Assembly (NCBI GenBank): GCA_903908535.1
Contig: CAIVSE010000029.1
Coordinates: forward strand, 1 to 43,121
Source of the DNA: Candidatus Doudnabacteria bacterium
Lineage (GTDB): Bacteria > Patescibacteriota > Doudnabacteria > UBA920
Direction of reading: 5' to 3'
Length of the DNA: 43,121 nt
Below, in pieces: positions 3,337 through 18,938 of the stretch (its first letter is position 1; the number at the start of each line of letters is the position of its first letter). Below the pieces are notes generated by a model that was not told the origin of the DNA, ran no database searches, and was given only the letters and a program-made list of their open reading frames with translations. A program made the position numbers and the translations under genes.

Positions 3337-4419
3337 ATGACTACAACTAAGCGGTCTGCCATAGTCCGTTTTTTTTATACCAAAATCGTCAAACCTATTT
3401 TGTTTAAGTTTGATCCCGAAGACGTCCACGACAATATAACCTTGATTGGGCGTTTTTTAGGCAGTAACATAATTACCAGGGGCACTACAAGTTTAATGCT
3501 TAATTACGAAAATCCGGCGCTGGAGCAAAATATTCTGGGCCTTAAATTTAAAAATCCTATAGGTTTGGCCGCGGGTTTTGATAAAGACGCCCGCCTGACC
3601 AAAATTTTGCCTTACGTGGGTTTTGGTTTTGAAGAAGCCGGCTCCATAACCGGCGAGCCCTGCCAAGGCAATCCGCGGCCCAGGCTGTGGCGCCTAAAAG
3701 AACAGCAATCCATGCGGGTTTATTACGGTTTAAAAAATGACGGCTGCGGAGCAATATCTAGACGCCTGCAAAATGCAAATTTTAAATTTATTTTGGGTAC
3801 CAGCATTGCCAAAACCAACAGCCCGCAAACCGTGGACAGGCAAAAAGGGATTGCCGATTATGTCAAAGCTTTTAAGGCCTTTACGGGCATCGGGGATTAT
3901 TACACCGTCAACATTTCCTGCCCCAATGCTTTTGGCGGCCAGCCGTTTACGGACGCGGAAAGTTTCCACCAGCTGATGGCGGAAATAGATAAAGTGGCAA
4001 CCGCAAAACCGGTGTTTGTAAAATTTTCACCGGATTTGCCGCAAACAGAAGTTGACGCCCTTTTGGCAGTGGCGGCCAAACACAGGATCCACGGTTTTGT
4101 TTTGGCTAACCTGACCAAAAAATTCGGGGGCATTGGCGGCCTAAGCGGCAAAGTCCAGGAGAATTTAGCCAATGAACTTATCAGGTACGTTTATAAAAAA
4201 ACCCGCGGCCGCTATATTATAATGGGCGTCGGCGGGGTCTTTAACGCGGAAGATGCCTATAAAAAAATCAGGCTGGGCGCCAGTTTGGTGCAGTTGATTA
4301 CCGGCATGATTTTTGAAGGTCCGCAGTTAATAGGGGAGATAAACCGGGGACTGGCAGGACTGTTAAAGCGGGATGGGTATAAAAATATTGCCGAAGCGGT
4401 GGGGAAAGATAATCGGTAA
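3337..4419 (+). CDS. pyrD: Dihydroorotate dehydrogenase, class 2 (quinone type)
   Basis: 360 aa; NPIGLAAGFDKDA, GFGFEEAGSITGEPCQGNPRPRLWRL, TVNISCPN, IIMGVGGVFNAEDAYKKIRLGASLVQL. Confidence 0.93.
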   Translation: MTTTKRSAIVRFFYTKIVKPILFKFDPEDVHDNITLIGRFLGSNIITRGTTSLMLNYENPALEQNILGLKFKNPIGLAAGFDKDARLTKILPYVGFGFEEAGSITGEPCQGNPRPRLWRLKEQQSMRVYYGLKNDGCGAISRRLQNANFKFILGTSIAKTNSPQTVDRQKGIADYVKAFKAFTGIGDYYTVNISCPNAFGGQPFTDAESFHQLMAEIDKVATAKPVFVKFSPDLPQTEVDALLAVAAKHRIHGFVLANLTKKFGGIGGLSGKVQENLANELIRYVYKKTRGRYIIMGVGGVFNAEDAYKKIRLGASLVQLITGMIFEGPQLIGEINRGLAGLLKRDGYKNIAEAVGKDNR

Positions 4420-8984: not shown

Positions 8985-9791
8985 TTATATATGATTCCGC
9001 TGCTGGTCGGCAAATGCTGACGGCGGCATTTTTAATGATGTGTGGATTCTTGTATGGTTATAGCTGTGGATGAGTAGGTAAATTTCGGCTGTTAATTCCC
9101 CTAAGGTTTTAAATCTTCCCGGATCTCCCAGATCAACTTTAAACTGGGAGTAAAAGGATTCTTGGTAGCCGTTCTCCCATGGTGATGATTTATGGCTCAT
9201 GGAAACGGTAATACCAGCTTGCTCAGCCAAGCGGCAGTAGAGCGAGGCTTTGTATTCCGTGCCTTGGTCGGAGTGGAGATAGTTTGCGGCTGAATGTTTT
9301 TCCAGTGCGTCAATTAGAGCCAGTAAAACCAGTTGGGTATTATGGGCGGTCCAGACTGACCAGCCTACGACCTCTCTGGTGAACAAATCCATGATCGTAG
9401 CCAGGTAAATGAATCTGCCTAAAAATGGAATGTAGGTAAAATCGCTGACCCAGACAATTCCTTCATGCTCAGGGAAGGGTATCAGCAGCAACCAATTTTG
9501 GTAGGGAGCGATAATTTGTCCTAAATCCCTGGCTTTCTTGGGCTTTTTACCTCTTCGACGATAGGGCTGAATGCCAAACAGCTTCATTACTCTCTTGGCA
9601 CGGTTCTTGCCTATGCCGAGGGCTGGGCCGATTCGTTTGTGACCATAGCTGGGATGCTCATGGAGCTTTTGTTCAATGCGGATTTTAAGCAGCCAGTCTT
9701 TTTGTGGTAAGCTCGGTTCGTAATACAGGCTAGCCCGGGATATGCCTAAACTTTTGGCCAGTTCTGTCTTAGTTGGATTTTCAAGGTGCAT
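8985..9791 (-). CDS. IS3-family transposase OrfB (rve/DDE integrase core)
   Basis: 268 aa; WVSDFTYIP..YLATIMDLFTREVVGW, HSDQGTEY, SPWENGYQESFYSQFK. Confidence 0.95.
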   Translation of the reverse strand: MHLENPTKTELAKSLGISRASLYYEPSLPQKDWLLKIRIEQKLHEHPSYGHKRIGPALGIGKNRAKRVMKLFGIQPYRRRGKKPKKARDLGQIIAPYQNWLLLIPFPEHEGIVWVSDFTYIPFLGRFIYLATIMDLFTREVVGWSVWTAHNTQLVLLALIDALEKHSAANYLHSDQGTEYKASLYCRLAEQAGITVSMSHKSSPWENGYQESFYSQFKVDLGDPGRFKTLGELTAEIYLLIHSYNHTRIHTSLKMPPSAFADQQRNHI

Positions 9792-9807
9792 AAGGGCGGA
9801 TATCTCT

Positions 9808-10074
9808 CTAACTAAGCTCCTTTTTTCCCGCCAATGACAGTTTGACTGTCAGCCGGCCGATTATTTCATGGAGGGTTTGGTTTTCCCGCTTTAACCTTGA
9901 GACTTCAATCACCGAGGGTGGGGCGGTCACTCCTTTGGCTATCCAACCATATATGGTCTTGTCGGACAGGCCATGTTCGGCCGCTGCTTGTGGCACGCTG
10001 ACACCTTCTTCCTTAATGCGTTTTAAAATTTGCTGCTTAACTTCCTTAGATACTAAATGTTTGCCTTTGGGCAT
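9808..10074 (-). CDS. IS3-family transposase OrfA (HTH)
   Basis: 88 aa; KQQILKRIKEEGVSVPQAAAEHGLSDKTIYGWI plus C-terminal leucine zipper-like helix. Confidence 0.92.
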   Translation of the reverse strand: MPKGKHLVSKEVKQQILKRIKEEGVSVPQAAAEHGLSDKTIYGWIAKGVTAPPSVIEVSRLKRENQTLHEIIGRLTVKLSLAGKKELS

Positions 10075-10252: not shown

Positions 10253-11203
10253 TTAAAATAATTCTTTTTGGGTTATTTGAATTTTATTAATAATTTTAAA
10301 TTCGCTGCCAAGGCGGGGTTTGGCGGTTGGGCTGGGATTTTTAATATCCATAATTTTGTCCATTTCCTGCTTGCGTTTAATGGATAGTTTTAAGTATTTT
10401 TCTTCTAAATCTATTCCAATAAACTTACGGTTAAAAACACTGGCCACAATGCCGGTGGTGGAACTGCCGGTGAACGGATCTAACACAACATCACCCTCAT
10501 TGGTGCTGGCTAAAACTATCCGCTTTAGCAAGTCTATGGGTTTTTGCGTGGGGTGTTTGCCAAACTTTTTTTCAGCCGGTTTGGGTGTACCCATGGACCA
10601 GACGGAACGCATTTGCAAATTCGGTTTCTTTAAAGGGTCTTCCGGCCAGTTGCCGTTTTTCATTAAGTCATAATTAAAAGTATGCTTGGCCTTTTTATCT
10701 TTGCGCGCCCAAATTAAGGTTTCGTGGCTGGCCGTAAAAAAGCGGCAGCTTAGGTTAGGGGAGGCATTGGGCTTAAACCACGAGACATCATTTAAAATAT
10801 GGTAGCCTAAAGATTGCAAAGCATGGCCGCATTGGTAAATGGAATGATAAGTGCCGCTAACCCACAGCGTGCCGTTGGGTTTTAAAACTCTTTGGCAGGC
10901 CTTAAGCCAGTTAAAATGAAAATCATAGTCGTCCTCAAAACCTTTGCTTTTATCCCAGTCGCCTTTGTTAACACTAACCATTCTACCGGCATGAACGCTA
11001 AAGCCGCCGTTAGATAGGTTGTAGGGCGGATCTGCAAATATCATGTCCACGGAATTTTCGGGGAGTTGCTTAAGCAAATTTAAACAGTCGGCTTGGTATA
11101 AAGCAAAGTCGTTTTGAATATAATAGGGTTTTTCCTGTACCCCGGTAAGAATTTTAACGGAAGTTTCCATGGGCTTCTTTTTAGTTTTAGTATCTCTTTT
11201 CAT
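10253..11203 (-). CDS. Site-specific DNA methyltransferase, beta-class (DPPY ... FxGxxT order), DpnA/M.HinfI-like
   Basis: 316 aa; DMIFADPPYNLSNGG..MVSVNKGDWDKSKGF, KHPTQKP, VVLDPFTGSSTTGI. Confidence 0.9.
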   Translation of the reverse strand: MKRDTKTKKKPMETSVKILTGVQEKPYYIQNDFALYQADCLNLLKQLPENSVDMIFADPPYNLSNGGFSVHAGRMVSVNKGDWDKSKGFEDDYDFHFNWLKACQRVLKPNGTLWVSGTYHSIYQCGHALQSLGYHILNDVSWFKPNASPNLSCRFFTASHETLIWARKDKKAKHTFNYDLMKNGNWPEDPLKKPNLQMRSVWSMGTPKPAEKKFGKHPTQKPIDLLKRIVLASTNEGDVVLDPFTGSSTTGIVASVFNRKFIGIDLEEKYLKLSIKRKQEMDKIMDIKNPSPTAKPRLGSEFKIINKIQITQKELF

Positions 11204-11370: not shown

Positions 11371-11395
11371 ACAAAAACCACCCAACAGGGTGGTT
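11371..11395 (-). terminator. Rho-independent terminator on the minus strand (putative displaced tmRNA terminator)
   Basis: AACCACCC-tgtt-GGGTGGTT followed by TTTTTGT on the minus strand; no minus-strand ORF directly upstream of it. Confidence 0.6.
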
Positions 11396-11741
11396 TAACC
11401 TTTATGTGGTGGCGCCGCAACTTCGTTGCGGCATCCTACCAAAATTAGAAACCTCACAAAGTTTCGGTTTCATTTTGGTGGACAAGACGGGTAATTCGTC
11501 AAACCCCCTGTTTGATTACCTTTCCCGATTTTGGAGGTTTTATAATTCAAGCCCCGTTTTGCAGGAACTGCTTGTAAATGCTAATTAAGGTATTGGTCAG
11601 ATACTCACAAGTGTAGAGTTAAATCAAAAGGGATGAGCAATGCTAGTAACAGCATTAGAACACCATGGAAATTTGATTGGTTTCACGATATTAGCGGTTT
11701 TACAAGTCCATTTCCGCTAATAAGCACTTGTAATAAGTTTG

Positions 11742-11750
11742 TGCTATAAT
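11742..11750 (+). promoter_or_regulatory. Extended -10 promoter (TGCTATAAT) of the protease/beta-flower operon
   Basis: TGCTATAAT, 12 nt before the ATG at 11763. Confidence 0.6.
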
Positions 11751-11762
11751 TTAAATATACTT

Positions 11763-12452
11763 ATGGATTATACCGATATTGTTAAGAAAATTAAACCCAG
11801 CATTGCTTTCATTTTAACTTTTGACGCAGATAATAAGCGGGATAGTACCGGTAGTGGTTTTGTGTTTGGAGAAAAAGGCATATTAGTTACGTGTAACCAT
11901 GTCGTAAAAGATGCTAGCTCAATCTTAATAAAATTCCCTGGCTCAGAGCACATATCAGCAAAAGTTGCTGTTCGTGATGAGGAGCACGACTTAGCATTGC
12001 TTAAATTTGATGATAATAAAAGGGAGCCATTACTATTAGGTGAGTTAAATCAAATTGCTGAAGGTATGGGCGTAATTTTTTCTGGTTACCCTTTAGGTAT
12101 TGAAGATTTAACTACGCACCAAGGAATACTTTCTGCAATAGCTAAAGACCCTACGGGGGTTACTACTTACCTTATTGATGGCACAGTAAATTCTGGCAAT
12201 AGTGGCTGCCCTTTAATGGATACAAATGGCAGTGTCATAGGCGTAGTTAATGCGAAAAGGAGACAACATAACGTGTTATTGGAAAAGGTTGAAAACATGA
12301 CTAATGGAGCTATATCGCTCCATGGTGTGGATTTGGTTAGAATTTACCAAGCTTTAATAAATAATGTACAATTGGGAATAGGTTATGCCGTGCCGGCTTC
12401 CTATATACCCGAACATAAAGGGGCAGAAGAAAATTTAAACGAACAAAAATAA
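11763..12452 (+). CDS. Trypsin-like serine protease (HtrA/S1 type, no PDZ seen)
   Basis: Likely start MDYTDIVKKI. Triad motifs VTCNHVV (His), EHDLALLKF (Asp), GTVNSGNSGCPL (Ser). Confidence 0.85.
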   Translation: MDYTDIVKKIKPSIAFILTFDADNKRDSTGSGFVFGEKGILVTCNHVVKDASSILIKFPGSEHISAKVAVRDEEHDLALLKFDDNKREPLLLGELNQIAEGMGVIFSGYPLGIEDLTTHQGILSAIAKDPTGVTTYLIDGTVNSGNSGCPLMDTNGSVIGVVNAKRRQHNVLLEKVENMTNGAISLHGVDLVRIYQALINNVQLGIGYAVPASYIPEHKGAEENLNEQK

Positions 12453-12453
12453 T

Positions 12454-12759
12454 ATGGAATCAGTTTTTCTTTCTACAGGTCAATATTTAGGTTTTATAAA
12501 TAACGGTTACCTTTTTTCTAGGGACGGTAAGTATCTTGGTTGGATTGAAAGCAGTTTCGTCTGGGATGTTAATGGTAACTTTAGAGGTGTACTGCAGATT
12601 ATAGAAAATCGTAAATATATTATTCTAAATACTTTAACAATACAGCCCATACCTAGGGTGCCCCGTACATCCCCAGTCAATCCTGTCTTACCAAACCCTC
12701 CACCAAATGCTCCCCAAATACAGTTACCGGTTGGTTATAAAGATGGTTTTTCAATTTAA
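12454..12759 (+). CDS. 4-fold beta-flower domain-like protein
   Basis: 101 aa; repeated FLSTGQYLGFINNGYLFSRDGKYLGWIESSFVWDVNGNFRGVL pattern typical of the 4-fold beta-flower fold; 1-nt gap after the protease gene. Confidence 0.65.
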   Translation: MESVFLSTGQYLGFINNGYLFSRDGKYLGWIESSFVWDVNGNFRGVLQIIENRKYIILNTLTIQPIPRVPRTSPVNPVLPNPPPNAPQIQLPVGYKDGFSI

Positions 12760-12763
12760 ATTT

Positions 12764-12790
12764 ACCCGTCTGTCAAAGGCGGGTTTTTTG
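12764..12790 (+). terminator. Rho-independent terminator after the protease/beta-flower pair
   Basis: ACCCG-tctgtcaaagg-CGGGT followed by TTTTT. Confidence 0.7.
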
Positions 12791-12810
12791 CTTAGTGTTT
12801 CTTAGCGATT

Positions 12811-13317
12811 ATGCCCATCTACAAACATAGGAACAAAGCCATATTAAACAGGCTGGAGACAATAGATATTACCGAATACATTGGGAAATTTATAATGCTT
12901 CACCGTAAAGACGGCTGGTGCCTGCCGCCGGCTTTTGGCTCTTTTCAACAGGCGGAAGAGCTTAAAATACTCCTTAACGAGCCAGAAAATACCACCTATA
13001 AGTCCGTACGTGGTTTGGATGGGTTTTATTATTGGGATAAACAGTTGGTTGACTTTGTGCCATCTAACTTAGGCGACGGGCGGGGATACCTGTTTTATTT
13101 TATCTGTAACTGCTGTGGCGGCCGTGTTAAATACTTATACCAATACAGCTATTGCGATTCGCCTCTGTGCCGCACCTGCTGCCATTTAAGCTATAAAACT
13201 CCGTCCCGCAGGGAAAGAAACTTGTCCCGCCTATTTCGTAAACCTCTTATATCAAGTGAATCACGGTATGCCATTGCCCAGTATGCGGGGATTACAGCGG
13301 CAGATTTACCCAGTTAG
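12811..13317 (+). CDS. Uncharacterised zinc-ribbon-containing protein
   Basis: 168 aa; CNCCGGRVKYLYQYSYCDSPLCRTCCHLSYKT, a Cys-rich ribbon often seen in mobile-element cargo proteins. Confidence 0.6.
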   Translation: MPIYKHRNKAILNRLETIDITEYIGKFIMLHRKDGWCLPPAFGSFQQAEELKILLNEPENTTYKSVRGLDGFYYWDKQLVDFVPSNLGDGRGYLFYFICNCCGGRVKYLYQYSYCDSPLCRTCCHLSYKTPSRRERNLSRLFRKPLISSESRYAIAQYAGITAADLPS

Positions 13318-13652
13318 AGCAGGAGTAAAATAATAACCACGACCACAATAATAAACAGTACCCAAAAGGCTTTATTATTGCTTTTAGGGTACTTTAAGGA
13401 GTTGGCCTCGGTTTGAGTTAGTTCGCCTTTGGCAGCTTTTTGGTCTAGTAAGTGATTAACAATTTGCTTTTGTTCCTGTTCAGTTTTTAGTTCCGAATAT
13501 GTAGCAACGGCACCCAGCACCACCAAAGCCCCAAGTAGCCCGTTGCTTTTCTTGGCCTGCTTTTGCTGTAACCGTAAAGACTGGGCGGCAAGATTGTTTT
13601 GCTGCGCTAACAGGGCATTTTGGGTTTTGAGCTGCTGGTTAAAATCGGACAT
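13314..13652 (-). CDS. Small protein with two predicted hydrophobic segments
   Basis: 112 aa; C-terminal TM FWVLFIIVVVVIILLLL and internal GLLGALVVLGAVA; compact minus-strand gene block. Confidence 0.55.
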   Translation of the reverse strand: MSDFNQQLKTQNALLAQQNNLAAQSLRLQQKQAKKSNGLLGALVVLGAVATYSELKTEQEQKQIVNHLLDQKAAKGELTQTEANSLKYPKSNNKAFWVLFIIVVVVIILLLL

Positions 13653-13657
13653 AAAGT

Positions 13658-13993
13658 TTAAAGATTATTTCTTGCTTGGTAAATTTCCCAGGCATAATCA
13701 AACGGCAGTAGGGAACACAGATAATTTCCGTCCTTTTTCTTGGGAGTAAATTCGTCAACAATATCAAGGATAATTGACTCTTCCTCTTCCGTAAGTTCCC
13801 TTTCAATAATCACAGCCAAGTCGCTAAAACGTTGGTCAATAACCGCAATGTTATTTTCAACCCGTAAATCTTCATCCGTGGCGGGTTGGTTTTTTATAAC
13901 CTTACGCTCTTCCATGACCACCCAGAATACATCCTCTAGGGTCATTTTCGGAAGCATGTTATCGTAGGCAAATTTTTGTGATTTTTTCTTCAT
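13658..13993 (-). CDS. Hypothetical protein
   Basis: 111 aa ORF in the compact minus-strand block. Confidence 0.5.
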   Translation of the reverse strand: MKKKSQKFAYDNMLPKMTLEDVFWVVMEERKVIKNQPATDEDLRVENNIAVIDQRFSDLAVIIERELTEEEESIILDIVDEFTPKKKDGNYLCSLLPFDYAWEIYQARNNL

Positions 13994-14376
13994 TGAGAAA
14001 CATTATTTGGAGATTGGCTAAATTCGCCCATTGTGGTGTCGCCCGTATCCGATGAAGTTGTGGCATTTCCCGAATCATTGTTTGCAATATTTGCAAGCGT
14101 TGTTGTGCAGTTATGCTGTACTAATTGGTTGTACCTGATTGTAAGAAAATCGTTTAGTTTCATTGATGGGTAATTGTCCGCATAAAACTTTATAAAGCGG
14201 TAAAGGTAGGCATTATATGCGTCCGAGTTTTGGTTTTCGGGGCAAACAAATTCTTTATTAAGCACTATTTTTTGGTACTGCACGTAAAGGGGATGGTGAT
14301 AAAAATACAAAACTCCGGCGCATAAAACGCAGATTACCAAAATACTAACCGCTATATGTTTTTGACTTTTCCGCAT
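13990..14376 (-). CDS. Hypothetical membrane-anchored protein
   Basis: 128 aa; N-terminal TM IAVSILVICVLCAGVLYFY; 4-nt overlap with the next gene. Confidence 0.5.
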   Translation of the reverse strand: MRKSQKHIAVSILVICVLCAGVLYFYHHPLYVQYQKIVLNKEFVCPENQNSDAYNAYLYRFIKFYADNYPSMKLNDFLTIRYNQLVQHNCTTTLANIANNDSGNATTSSDTGDTTMGEFSQSPNNVSQ

Positions 14377-14381
14377 AAAAT

Positions 14382-15347
14382 TTAAGGGGTTATGCCGTTT
14401 TCACATTCAAGCTGCACAGATTGTATTTGTTGGTTTATAGCTGTTATTTGAGAGTTTGCGGCCGTAAGTAGGGCTTGTTGTATAGCCTCGTTCATTGCTG
14501 CACCGTGTGCCCCATCAGAATCATATGCTTGCTGGGCATAATTCATTTTGATTTGGAAAATTTGCTCGTTTAAGTTATCCATATTATTTTCGCACGTGAT
14601 AGATAAAGTTGTAACTGGCTTGATAAAATCGGCCAAAATAGCATCCTCATATTGGCTTACATATAATCCTTGGTTTGAGTATAAAGCGCATTCCTCTCCC
14701 TCAGCTCCAAATGCGGCTGATGAGCCAGAACAAGTGTTAACTAAATATGCGTTTATACTGCTTGCCTGTGCTTGTAGGGGCTGGATTTCTGCTTGGACTG
14801 CCTGATATTGGGTTTGGTACATTGCCGTTTCTGCCTGTGCTGCGGATTGTGCCGCTTGCTGGGAAGCCTGTTGTTGGGCTGCTTGCTGTGCCTCTTGCGC
14901 TGCCTGCGCCGCTTGTTGCTCTGCGGCTAAATTTGATGCCTGCTGTGCTGGAGAAGTGGGGGAACAATTGCCTTGCCCGTCGCTGTACCATCCGGCAGGT
15001 AATTTGCCGCCGGAAATGTTGTTGCAAACAATTGCAGGCTGTTGTATTTGTGTGGGCGTTGGTTGGGCTATGACAGGATTTTGGGCAATAACTGGTGATG
15101 GAGTTACTTGTTGTGCCTTTGTTTGGCCAACATTTACCTTAACGTTAGATGGGGTTGTTGTCGTTGGTATTGGTGTTGTAGAAGCGATACTTGCCGGTAA
15201 AAAATTTGCCAAATCTGGGCTTGTAATTACCTGCATTGTTGAACTAGAATTTGCAGTTAACGCCGAACTATTCGGTTGGCTGACGGCAGTTTTATCGCAG
15301 CCAGCAGCAAAAAGTAAAAGACTAAAAATAATAACGACTTTTTTCAT
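14382..15347 (-). CDS. Probable lipoprotein with Gln/Ala-rich coiled coil
   Basis: 321 aa; MKKVVIIFSLLLFAAGC lipobox; QQAAQAAQEAQQAAQQQASQQAAQSAAQ. Confidence 0.6.
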   Translation of the reverse strand: MKKVVIIFSLLLFAAGCDKTAVSQPNSSALTANSSSTMQVITSPDLANFLPASIASTTPIPTTTTPSNVKVNVGQTKAQQVTPSPVIAQNPVIAQPTPTQIQQPAIVCNNISGGKLPAGWYSDGQGNCSPTSPAQQASNLAAEQQAAQAAQEAQQAAQQQASQQAAQSAAQAETAMYQTQYQAVQAEIQPLQAQASSINAYLVNTCSGSSAAFGAEGEECALYSNQGLYVSQYEDAILADFIKPVTTLSITCENNMDNLNEQIFQIKMNYAQQAYDSDGAHGAAMNEAIQQALLTAANSQITAINQQIQSVQLECENGITP

Positions 15348-15355
15348 AAAATTAT

Positions 15356-15685
15356 TTATTGATTGCTTGAAGCTGGATATTGCTTAAAACAATTATCTTT
15401 ATCATTCTGTAATTTTGTTTCTAGCCAATTTCTAATATCGTCGGTAACCACGTACATTTTGGAATAAGAATTATAAGTAGCATTGGTATTCCATAGTGAT
15501 GAATAATTTGATTGGGCAATTGCTAGACAAGTAGCTAAAGCGTTCTGATTATTAAGTAAATTATTTGCAGTATCTAATTGTGATTGCAGTTTAGTATTTT
15601 CGTTTTGCAAGGGAGTTAAGTCTCCATAGTTGCACCCGTCTGCCATTAAAATAATTAACGGCAAAAGTAATAGAATTTTTTTCAT
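15356..15685 (-). CDS. Probable small lipoprotein
   Basis: ORF 15356..15799; likely start MKKILLLLPLIILMADGC at 15685, with TACAAT exactly 6 nt upstream on the minus strand. Confidence 0.55.
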   Translation of the reverse strand: MKKILLLLPLIILMADGCNYGDLTPLQNENTKLQSQLDTANNLLNNQNALATCLAIAQSNYSSLWNTNATYNSYSKMYVVTDDIRNWLETKLQNDKDNCFKQYPASSNQ

Positions 15686-15717
15686 AAATACATTGTACCT
15701 TTCCGCAAGCAGACGCA

Positions 15718-15870
15718 AAAAAGGCCACCCGCTTGCTCCGGCCTTCCCTTTCGGGATTGCCCACAGCCTTTCGGCTATGACACTGAAGTATAAAAGCAAG
15801 ACAGATGACCGTCTTTATACTTCAGTGTTTAACGTTGCCGTGCTCACAGCCGAAGCCGTGAGTTTAGGCG
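15718..15870. repeat. Cluster of hairpins in the divergent intergenic region
   Basis: AAGGC..GCCTT, CCCtttcGGG, AGCCtttcGGCT, 14-bp perfect arms CACTGAAGTATAAA (15781-15794)/TTTATACTTCAGTG (15814-15827), CTCAC..GTGAG. Confidence 0.6.
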
Positions 15871-15918
15871 ATTAAATTGTGGCTTTATTATAACATTTTG
15901 TTAAAAGCTTACAAGGTC

Positions 15919-15947
15919 TTGACTTAAATCTTACATTGAGGTATGAT
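15919..15947 (+). promoter_or_regulatory. Promoter of the MerR-like gene (TTGACT-17-TATGAT)
   Basis: TTGACT 15919-15924, TATGAT 15942-15947, ATG at 15954 (6-nt gap). Confidence 0.6.
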
Positions 15948-15953
15948 TTATGC

Positions 15954-16745
15954 ATGAACGATAAACCGTCTAAAAATCCTTTTTTCAGCCAAGTTAGAGC
16001 CGAAAATTTGGAACAGTTCGGGGAGGTTTTTAAAAACAATAGGTTATTTAATGACCGAGAGTATACAGTTGCCAACACAGATGTGTCTTACCGAGTGATA
16101 AATCATTGGGGCAAAAATGACGTTTTGCCAGATGGGTTAAAAAGCTCTAAAGGCTGGCATAAATTTTCCTTTACTGAACTAATATGGCTCCGGTTAGTTA
16201 CGCACCTTAGGAATTTTGGTTTTTCGCTTAAAAGGATTGCAGAGATAAAAAAACAGATTATGGACTATGACAAACAGCATGATGTTTATCCTGTCTTGGA
16301 GTGGCCTGCCGTACAGGCTTGGAATACAGACGTTAGCCCGTGCCTTGTTGTTTTGGCGGATGGTCATGCAGGTTTAGCTGATTCTTTGGAAATTGAACTG
16401 TTGAGATACAAAAAACAGCAAGATATGCTTTTGATACCGCTCAAACAGATTTTTACCGAGATGGGGATTTCCGCCAAAAAAGGTAAATTTCTTATGCCCT
16501 TGCATTTGAACGCAAAAGAATTAAACTTATTGTTTGCCGTTCAAGAGGGCAAGTTCGGTACGATTACAATCAAGTTAAAAAATGGACAGATTGAACGCTT
16601 AGAAAAAACTGAAAATCTAGGGGCATTGGACGAATCTTACGAAAAGGTGCGGGAAATTATTAAAGCTGACGGTTATCAAAGAATTGTCTTGGAAACAGAG
16701 AACGGCAGAACTGTAAATTTAGAAAGAACAATTAAAGAAAAATGA
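15954..16745 (+). CDS. MerR-like DNA-binding protein
   Basis: DVSYRVINHWGKNDVLPDG...FSFTELIWLRLVTHLRNFGFSLKRIAEIKKQI, a MerR-type winged HTH. Confidence 0.7.
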   Translation: MNDKPSKNPFFSQVRAENLEQFGEVFKNNRLFNDREYTVANTDVSYRVINHWGKNDVLPDGLKSSKGWHKFSFTELIWLRLVTHLRNFGFSLKRIAEIKKQIMDYDKQHDVYPVLEWPAVQAWNTDVSPCLVVLADGHAGLADSLEIELLRYKKQQDMLLIPLKQIFTEMGISAKKGKFLMPLHLNAKELNLLFAVQEGKFGTITIKLKNGQIERLEKTENLGALDESYEKVREIIKADGYQRIVLETENGRTVNLERTIKEK

Positions 16746-16820
16746 CATTATTTTATATTATTTTAATGCTATCGGATACCCCGAAGCACTTACAAACTAT
16801 GACAACCGCTATCATAAAAA

Positions 16821-17012
16821 GTGAAGCAATGTCGCAATATTTGCGAGCTAATGTTTGTTACAATAAAGGAATATCGGGAGGTACTTAACGACAACGAGAG
16901 TACCGACGAGCAGATTCAAAAACGCTTAGAGTATTTAGAGGCATTTTGCCGGAATATTATTAGGCAGGAATTAGAGCCAAAGTCATTAAGTCAAAAAAAT
17001 GGACAAAGCTAG
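16821..17012 (+). CDS. Small hypothetical protein preceding the recombinase
   Basis: Likely real start at 16851 (MFVTIKEYREVLNDNEST); 14-nt overlap with the recombinase ORF. Confidence 0.5.
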   Translation: MKQCRNICELMFVTIKEYREVLNDNESTDEQIQKRLEYLEAFCRNIIRQELEPKSLSQKNGQS

Positions 17013-18612
17013 AAAAACCAATCATAAAGGGAAAGATAACGGGGCAACTTACGCCTTGCTTTATTGCCGTGTTTCGTCGGATAGACAGGCCAATGAAGGG
17101 CACGGTTTGGACAGCCAGGAATTGCGGTGCAGACAGTTTATAGAATCGCAAGGCTTGGTTTTTGATAGTCTGTACCAAGACGCCGCTTCCGGCGGTGGTA
17201 ATTACCAAGACCGTGCCGGAATGAATGAGATTATAAAGCACATTGATAAATTTCCTTACAGAAAATTTGTGGTTGTGGTTGATGATTTGTCCCGCTTATC
17301 CCGTGATACCAAAGCCTATTTAACTTTAAAAGAGGCTTTGAAAAACAGGCAGGTGGAGATGATGTCTCCAAATTTCCATTTTGATGACACGCCGGAAGGT
17401 GAATATATTGAGCAGGTTACAATGGCTGGCCATGAGCTGCAAAGGAAGGTAAATCGGCGGCAGGTTATTCAGAAGCAAAAGGCCAGACTGGAATCTGGCT
17501 ATTGGCCTTTTGGGAGTAAAAAGGGCTACACAATTAACAAGGTTGAGGGGCACGGCAAACTGGCAGAACCAAACAAAGAAGGGGATTTGCTCAAAGAAGC
17601 CTTAGAGGGTTTTGCCAGCGGCGTATTTATTCGGAAAATTGACGTCTGCCGTTTTCTATTGGAAAAAGGATTTTGGAAAACCCAAAGAGCAGAAAAATAT
17701 CTTGATAAAGTTACGGCCATATTAAGAGACCCTTTTTATGCTGGATATATTGAATACAGGCCGTGGGAAGTTTCCCGCCGCATAGGCCAGCACAAGAGCA
17801 TAATTTCGTTAGAGACCCACGAGCTAATTCAAAAGCGATTGCGTAAGGTGGATTTGAACGAGCGTGTCCGCATTGACACTTCACCAGATTTTCCGCTTCG
17901 TGGGCTAATAATTCACGACGAGTGCAAAGGCCATATTACCGGAGCTTGGTATAAAGGCAGGAAGGAAAAATACAGAAAATATGTTTGTCATACGGCAGGC
18001 TGCCCAAATTACAATAAACCGTTTGCGGCTAAAGATGTAGAGGGTCGCTTCCAAAAGGTGCTAGAAAAAGGAGCGTTAAAAAAACAAGTGGATGTTTTAG
18101 TAAAAAAGATGTTTGACCGAGTGTGGAGTGATGAAGTTTTAAAAATCAAGACTAGCGAACAAAGTTTAGGACAACAAAAAAGAACCTTAGAAAAAAGGCT
18201 CTCTGACCTTACCAATTTAATGCTGTCTGCTAAGTCGCCAGCCGTAAAGCGTAATTATGAAAAACAGATAGAAACGGCTGCAAATGAGCTTGAAGCAATT
18301 GAGGGTAAATCCATTGCCGGTATAGACTTAAACGTTCCTTATCAAACCGCCCTTGCAAAGGCCACAGGATTGCTAAAAATGCCCCATATAACGTGGAAAA
18401 AGCTCAATGTCCACGAACAGCACGGGCTATTCTTTTTCCTGTTTTTGGAAAAATTATCCTACTCTATAAAAGAGGGTTATCAAACCGCACAAATCCCTTA
18501 CGCAGCAAGGCTTTTTGAAGATTTTGCGGTCAAAGCACCCCAGTTGGTGGAGATGCCGGGAGTTAAACCCGGGTCCAAAACTTCTCAACCTTCTTATTGT
18601 TCACAAGATTAG
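16999..18612 (+). CDS. Large serine recombinase (resolvase + recombinase + zinc-ribbon/coiled coil)
   Basis: 537 aa; YCRVSSDRQANEGHGLDSQELRCRQF, VVDDLSRLSRD, CHTAGCPNYN, C-terminal coiled coil; last ~22 codons overlap the tmRNA gene antisense. Confidence 0.92.
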   Translation: MDKARKTNHKGKDNGATYALLYCRVSSDRQANEGHGLDSQELRCRQFIESQGLVFDSLYQDAASGGGNYQDRAGMNEIIKHIDKFPYRKFVVVVDDLSRLSRDTKAYLTLKEALKNRQVEMMSPNFHFDDTPEGEYIEQVTMAGHELQRKVNRRQVIQKQKARLESGYWPFGSKKGYTINKVEGHGKLAEPNKEGDLLKEALEGFASGVFIRKIDVCRFLLEKGFWKTQRAEKYLDKVTAILRDPFYAGYIEYRPWEVSRRIGQHKSIISLETHELIQKRLRKVDLNERVRIDTSPDFPLRGLIIHDECKGHITGAWYKGRKEKYRKYVCHTAGCPNYNKPFAAKDVEGRFQKVLEKGALKKQVDVLVKKMFDRVWSDEVLKIKTSEQSLGQQKRTLEKRLSDLTNLMLSAKSPAVKRNYEKQIETAANELEAIEGKSIAGIDLNVPYQTALAKATGLLKMPHITWKKLNVHEQHGLFFFLFLEKLSYSIKEGYQTAQIPYAARLFEDFAVKAPQLVEMPGVKPGSKTSQPSYCSQD

Positions 18613-18938
18613 CCGGTTAAATGCTTTGATGAAGTTAACCGGCAACCACATTCATCAAAGTTAATTTACGTTGTCTTAGTTTTGCCGGTGCAAATTAAAC
18701 GGGCAAAAAGCAGCCCCGAATAAACCTATTGCTCTTCAGCGAGGGCGCGCTAAAGGATAGGGTGCAGCTTAATAAATTAAGCTAACACAGGCTGAAGCTG
18801 GTTTGCGTTAGCAAATGCAGCCTGAACCTTAGACCATGCTGTTGCATTGGTGTTTGCCTGGCGGATTTACGAGTCACTTAGGCTTGCTCGTCTTGCATAG
18901 AAAAAGATTTTAAAGTCCTGTCAAAATCCGTCATCCCC
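18545..18938 (-). ncRNA. ssrA: Transfer-messenger RNA (tmRNA)
   Basis: 5' GGGGATGACGGATTTTGACAGGAC... and 3' ...GGACCCGGGTTTAACTCCCGGCATCTCCACCA; acceptor stem GGGGATG/CATCTCC pairs; tag ORF 18857..18777 ANTNATAWSKVQAAFANANQLQPVLA*; stop within hairpin AGCTTAAtttATTAAGCT. Confidence 0.93.

Follow-up and report, generated by a model that had tools for sequence, protein, structure and literature searches.

An integrative element at the tmRNA gene of a Patescibacteria-like bacterium appears to split its own serine integrase gene

The stretch of DNA analyzed here, which we call the window, is a 43,121-nucleotide contig (CAIVSE010000029.1) of a Candidatus Doudnabacteria bacterium, one of the 93 contigs of a 1.04-Mb genome whose relatives are Patescibacteria (candidate phyla radiation, CPR); the host is a tiny Patescibacteria-like bacterium. 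Our main finding is that the window carries a real integrative element of 7,069 bp at the 3' end of the gene for transfer-messenger RNA (tmRNA), and that its integrase, a large serine recombinase (LSR), is separated from a conserved C-terminal tail, which lies at the opposite end of the element. We consider it very probable that the element was inserted at the acceptor end of the tmRNA by its own LSR, that the integrase gene was split by this integration, and that the tail is joined to the integrase in the circular form. The split, the reading frame, the spacing and the conservation of the tail can all be read from the sequence. An earlier note on this DNA had proposed an element at the same place, with a left boundary that proves to be misplaced.

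The target is an intact host tmRNA gene (ssrA) on the minus strand at 18545-18938, as the earlier note had claimed: it matches Rfam RF00023 over its full length with 111 bits, has a plausible, readable tag (ANTNATAWSKVQAAFANANQLQPVLA) and ends in CCACCA at its 3' end. An ARAGORN run misses this gene. The LSR gene (16999-18612, plus strand) matches PF00239 (Resolvase) and PF07508 (Recombinase) above cut-off, and its nearest NCBIfam model is CcrB, at 66 bits, far below cut-off. Its open reading frame (ORF) is intact, and in an alignment with relatives the catalytic serine and the active-site arginines (R24, S26, R72, R99, R102) are invariant. It holds serine recombinase domains only and is not a tyrosine-family integrase, and neither the ORF list nor a Pfam scan yields a second recombinase in the element. 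As the earlier note had also stated, the LSR gene ends inside the tmRNA: its codons from 18547 onward are antisense to that gene, and its last 67 nt overlap it. Two further claims were borne out, namely that no terminator follows the tmRNA (none lies within 110 nt of its 3' end) and that a strong minus-strand terminator stands far away from it; our terminator search places this host terminator, parted from the tmRNA by the element, at 11375-11396 (fold of -15.8 kcal/mol).

When the ends of the element were joined by a script, the integrase frame passed the junction without a stop and ran into a conserved tail at 11478-11588 (plus strand, stop codon included), which is in frame with the integrase in the circle only. 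The tails of the window (YLSRFWRFYNSSPVLQELLVNAN) and of genome G142 (YLSKFWEFYQTCPNLQKALESAK), whose LSR is 50% identical, are alike. A first profile, made from these two tails only and without core residues, was searched against every fetched locus, translated in six frames, and matched about 15 more elements at E<1e-5, all of them on the LSR strand, upstream of the LSR and at the far end of the element. For the first-profile elements with a clear right attachment site (attR), a fixed number of codons counted back from YLxRFW leads to GTGGA (GTGCA for a tRNA-Ile target), as at the junction of the same element's LSR with its tRNA or tmRNA gene (tDNA); because the first profile contained no core residues, this spacing is independent evidence for its matches. 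Later, wider profiles did include core residues, and brought further tail subtypes with an in-frame core, giving 38 distinct tails and two more found afterwards. About 40 related elements, nearly all from Patescibacteria, have a tail at the end opposite the integrase. Of 37 tails, 35 have Asn at one constant distance behind the core and the remaining two have Asp and Glu, and the C-termini of the circle forms align well. With ratios of nonsynonymous to synonymous substitution rates (dN/dS) of 0.08-0.55 in every pair with usable dS, the tails are under purifying selection across distant hosts.

Frame and spacing also locate the attachment cores. The 8-bp sequence TTGGTGGA occurs on the plus strand at the integrase/tmRNA junction (18544-18551), where the attR core is set by protein frame and spacing, and again at 11475-11482, where the match together with the conserved core-to-tail spacing gives the corrected left attachment site (attL); this is the only placement that fits the frame and the spacing conserved in about 37 relatives. 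The earlier note had taken TGGTGG (11407-11412, plus strand) as attL, which gives an element of 7,138 bp. This hexamer does exist at 11407, as it does at 18545, and the copy at 11407 shares the frame of the tail and is close to the strong terminator; yet it occurs 46 times in the window, and a core at 11407 would lengthen an otherwise constant spacing by 23 residues. TGGTGG was therefore ruled out as the core, where TTGGTGGA fits better; we judge it to be a chance match, and a boundary at this position is extremely improbable. What stands of the proposed 7.14-kb element is the element itself; its left boundary was 68 bp off, and alignment reveals a different attL/attR pair, an outcome that the earlier note had itself named as speaking against its boundaries. 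The logic behind that boundary was also tried elsewhere: as the sole criterion for attL, the longest tDNA-end repeat with a terminator after it is correct for G142, fails for G020, where it points to a site about 1.1 kb away from the tail-defined one, and gives an unconfirmed site in G138. The longest common substring alone misplaced several sites, and was replaced by spacing-based placement.

Set side by side, the window core and that of G142 (TGGAGATGGCGGG) most likely confine the crossover to TGGA, which complements the end of the acceptor stem plus the discriminator base. With a crossover within TTGGTGGA, the tmRNA retains its full sequence and its CCA. In the predicted empty site, the first terminator-like signal 3' of the tmRNA is a weak hairpin followed by a T-rich tract (11448-11471, minus strand), and the strong terminator comes next, at a distance of about 80 nt from the CCA. 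There is good support for integration by the serine recombinase at the 3' end of the tmRNA, an event that left the host terminators at the far end, because related LSRs end antisense in tmRNA or tRNA genes at most loci examined, and because terminators lie outside 17 of the 38 tail-defined left ends, on the host side, versus inside only 3, on the element side.

This preference for targets extends well beyond the window. Very often, the LSRs of the fetched loci terminate antisense within the tmRNA gene or genes for tRNA-Ala, Lys, Glu, Ile, Met, Leu, Ser, Asn and Gly. When GTDB genomes were scanned with the closest LSRs, 80 loci were obtained, about 40 in Patescibacteria and most of the others in Alphaproteobacteria, and in about 60 of them ARAGORN called a tRNA or tmRNA at the 3' end of the LSR; integration at tDNA 3' ends is therefore a property of the whole clade. 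(For the LSR pattern search, a 12-sequence alignment was too diverse and a 4-sequence alignment worked.) Many LSR-free tmRNA genes of relatives have a terminator directly 3' of the CCA, and none was found, among the relatives searched, 3' of tmRNAs entered by LSRs close to that of the window. In G005 and G018 an LSR of a more distant type sits at the tmRNA, and a terminator-like hairpin is present there.

A conserved short frame at the left end could be read in another way, as a separate small gene, for example for a directionality factor, that starts at a GTG or TTG of the core and matches the integrase frame owing to this start codon. Small proteins are commonly encoded close to attachment sites. 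The core often includes GTG, a possible start codon, but that of G142 does not; the joined circle has no stop before the tail, so that the integrase must read into it; and in the integrated state the element cannot supply a ribosome-binding site for the tail, because the upstream side is host DNA. Moreover, natural fusions of an LSR with a tail exist. At locus L171 (3625-5427) a different LSR continues in frame into a tail of the window type, the joint falling exactly at the core, and in G004 a second LSR, which is truncated, contains the left end of the tmRNA element in its terminal part, and the frame is kept there too; L083 (3-335) and L169 (9947-11641) are probably similar fusions. These genes match what is predicted for recombination between tandem elements, with tails exchanged between integrases, and in them the tail does form the end of an LSR. 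A separate gene is, on balance, quite unlikely, and we retain the reading of a detached integrase end. An AlphaFold2 model of the natural LSR-plus-tail protein of L169 (mean predicted local distance difference test, pLDDT, 82; predicted template modelling score, pTM, 0.40) shows a long coiled coil and a last subdomain; a linker modelled with low confidence (523-529) lies by the junction, before a helix formed by the tail (532-553).

Several other arrangements of LSRs and tails were observed. At L065 (4641-5834) an LSR gene is fused in frame to the apparent tail of a neighbouring element, which again suits a tandem array. At L183 (9923-12223) an unrelated ORF adds about 240 residues to an LSR, fused in frame at its junction, and a tRNA-Ala gene lies about 5.4 kb beyond; this is perhaps a nested or tandem element. 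At L078 (~3673-3840, minus strand; genome G002) a tail and attachment core lie about 0.5 kb downstream of a tmRNA with its own terminator and have no adjoining LSR, which is likely the scar of a lost element. Possible degraded tails were seen near the tmRNA in G032 and G033.

Conservation of tail and integrase might also reflect recent descent alone, the block being a decayed and immobile remnant. Neither a circle, nor an empty site, nor transfer genes were seen, as would suit such a remnant: the Pfam scan of the element recognised no replication or transfer gene, and a search of viral contigs for relatives or circles found nothing. Decay is hard to reconcile, on the other hand, with an integrase ORF that is intact and keeps its conserved catalytic residues, with purifying selection on the tails across distant hosts, and with the different cargo and hosts found around the same module from one element to another, and we consider it quite unlikely.

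For insertion by the element's own LSR, we propose the following scheme. The attachment site of the circle (attP) would lie inside the integrase coding sequence, in the linker before the C-terminal helix, and the free circle would make the integrase with its conserved tail. Integration would move the tail codons 7 kb away and leave the gene ending in host codons antisense to the tmRNA; excision would restore it. The full-length enzyme would drive integration and the tail-less form would be inactive or altered, in which case the structure of the gene would act as a switch set by the state of the element. Transcripts of the tmRNA may, in addition, run antisense into the integrated integrase gene. 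More tentatively, and with a probability that we put somewhat short of even, the split may be a built-in state sensor: the helix of the full-length enzyme, made by the circle only, would be needed for integration or would restrict the enzyme to it, the chromosomal form, with its tmRNA- or tRNA-antisense end, would differ until it is given the tail of a neighbour, and the exchange of tails between integrases of different elements in tandem arrays would constitute crosstalk, across Patescibacteria, among mobile elements that share one tRNA or tmRNA gene.

Several points weigh against insertion with a split integrase as we describe it. The circular form and the empty site are unobserved, no genome of the same genus being among those compared, and the sequences are mostly metagenome-assembled contigs. 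The attachment core is 8 bp only, and only a weak hairpin lies next to the corrected attL. Tails were not recognised beside the Alphaproteobacterial LSRs in the flanks available (up to 10 kb), and G138 has a different frame at the junction and no recognised tail. Finally, the function of the tail is something that we infer.

The arrangement has partial precedents. In the Dehalococcoides ssrA islands, a serine recombinase related to CcrB, DsiB, is likewise associated with integration at the tmRNA 3' end, and the overlap of dsiB with the tmRNA puts its stop codon outside the island, as in the window element; the authors raised the possibility that dsiB is fully functional only in the circle or beside an island with the missing 3' piece (PMC3146451). 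Judged from sequence, the piece postulated there is found here, as a conserved detached tail. The two systems differ in other respects: the Dehalococcoides islands have a 20-bp repeat and insert in the T-loop, whereas the window element has an 8-bp core at the acceptor end; they carry a second recombinase, DsiA, and a six-gene RecF/ParB/Mom-like module, whereas the window element has no second recombinase, and its module consists of a MerR-type gene, a small ORF and an RNA of the LOOT family.

According to a 2021 review, recombinases that disrupt their own gene occur only in archaea (PMC8371274). The archaeal suicidal (SSV-type) integrases resemble that of the window in that attP lies in the integrase gene, integration splits this gene and excision restores it, the archaeal targets being tRNA genes; an attP inside the integrase can be read from the sequence of about 40 of our elements, the circle itself being unobserved. 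SSV-type integrases are, however, archaeal tyrosine recombinases in which the split severs the link to the catalytic domain, whereas the window enzyme is a bacterial serine recombinase from which only the C-terminal helix is lost, the catalytic, DNA-binding and coiled-coil parts all being retained. By its predicted gene arrangement, the window element is thus a bacterial serine-recombinase counterpart of the archaeal suicidal integrases. Islander, in 2014, stated that only tyrosine integrases were known to target tDNAs (PMC4383910). Like an Islander island, the window element has an intact tDNA beside the integrase and a short tDNA repeat at the opposite end, so that it is flanked by the intact tmRNA and a displaced 3' fragment, here much shorter than usual; Islander counts tyrosine integrases only, whereas the window has a serine recombinase and an 8-bp repeat. 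An earlier account of such a split integrase may exist outside open-access PubMed Central, which was the literature covered.

If our reading holds, a widespread clade of bacterial serine integrases both splits its own gene and targets tRNA and tmRNA genes, in a radiation, the Patescibacteria, where few mobile elements have been characterised. With the conserved detached tail as a marker, the far end of such elements could be located precisely, and the tail would account for integrases with odd, tRNA-derived peptide ends, and natural enzyme pairs make direction control of serine integrases testable.

LOOT RNA is now also tied to these elements, as a likely 5' leader. In the window it lies on the minus strand at 15740-15870, followed after 54 nt by the start codon (ATG) of a lipoprotein-like gene, and matches the sequence and structure of Rfam RF03000 above the gathering score (47.7 bits, cut-off 46.4). 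LOOTs are present in 35 of the 145 relatives' genomes, and roughly half of about 60 sites lie within 8 kb of an LSR; LOOT-bearing genomes have only about 2.5 Recombinase-domain matches per Mb, a density at which about 4% of sites would be expected that close to an LSR by chance. Among the GTDB loci, a LOOT was found at about 27 of 41 Patescibacteria LSR loci versus none of the 22 other loci searched, and in all 23 cases where attL is known the LOOT is located between that site and the LSR. In 66 of 81 cases an ATG on the same strand follows the LOOT 3' end at a distance of 25-90 nt (median ~52), versus 13 on the diverging side, and a hydrophobic N-terminus follows in 45 cases on the same-strand side versus 0 on the other. 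This spacing and these N-termini make LOOT likely to be a 5' leader of element genes and not a small RNA (sRNA), whereas Rfam files it as an sRNA gene. That LOOT might act as a DNA structure was considered and rejected, RNA being favoured: on the LOOT strand, G-U pairs far exceed A-C pairs in the helices, and loops are GNRA- or UNCG-like. The 3,658-bp contig L145 (G139:C25) has a 121-bp terminal direct repeat that is itself a LOOT RNA, and is probably a 3.5-kb circle; other contigs of G139 also terminate in a LOOT.

The remaining genes of the element combine a recurrent module with cargo. Upstream of the integrase, at 15936-16745 (plus strand), lies a gene for a MerR-type DNA-binding protein (PF13411), and about ten elements have a homologue in this position. 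A small conserved ORF at 16851-17012 (plus strand) overlaps the start of the integrase gene, and in many relatives a homologue directly precedes the LSR; the ORF has no NCBIfam match and may encode a directionality factor. The cargo includes, on the plus strand, an HtrA-like trypsin-fold protease domain (11739-12452; PF13365, with HtrA-type NCBIfam models below cut-off) and a beta-flower protein (12454-12759; PF21784), followed by a small protein common to other elements of the same kind (12811-13317; homologues in L170, L201, L211 and L224). On the minus strand, the ORF list gives a cargo operon of five ORFs for lipoprotein-like and membrane-type proteins (13314-15686), without a Pfam match; its first two genes also adjoin a LOOT in G021.

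To the left of the element, the minus strand carries what we take to be an IS3-like transposase pair (8985-10074) and a gene for a CcrM-like adenine methyltransferase (10253-11203). More LSRs occur elsewhere in the same genome (G000), on contigs C57 and C33 (L002 and L003), with antisense ends in tRNA-Lys and tRNA-Leu genes.

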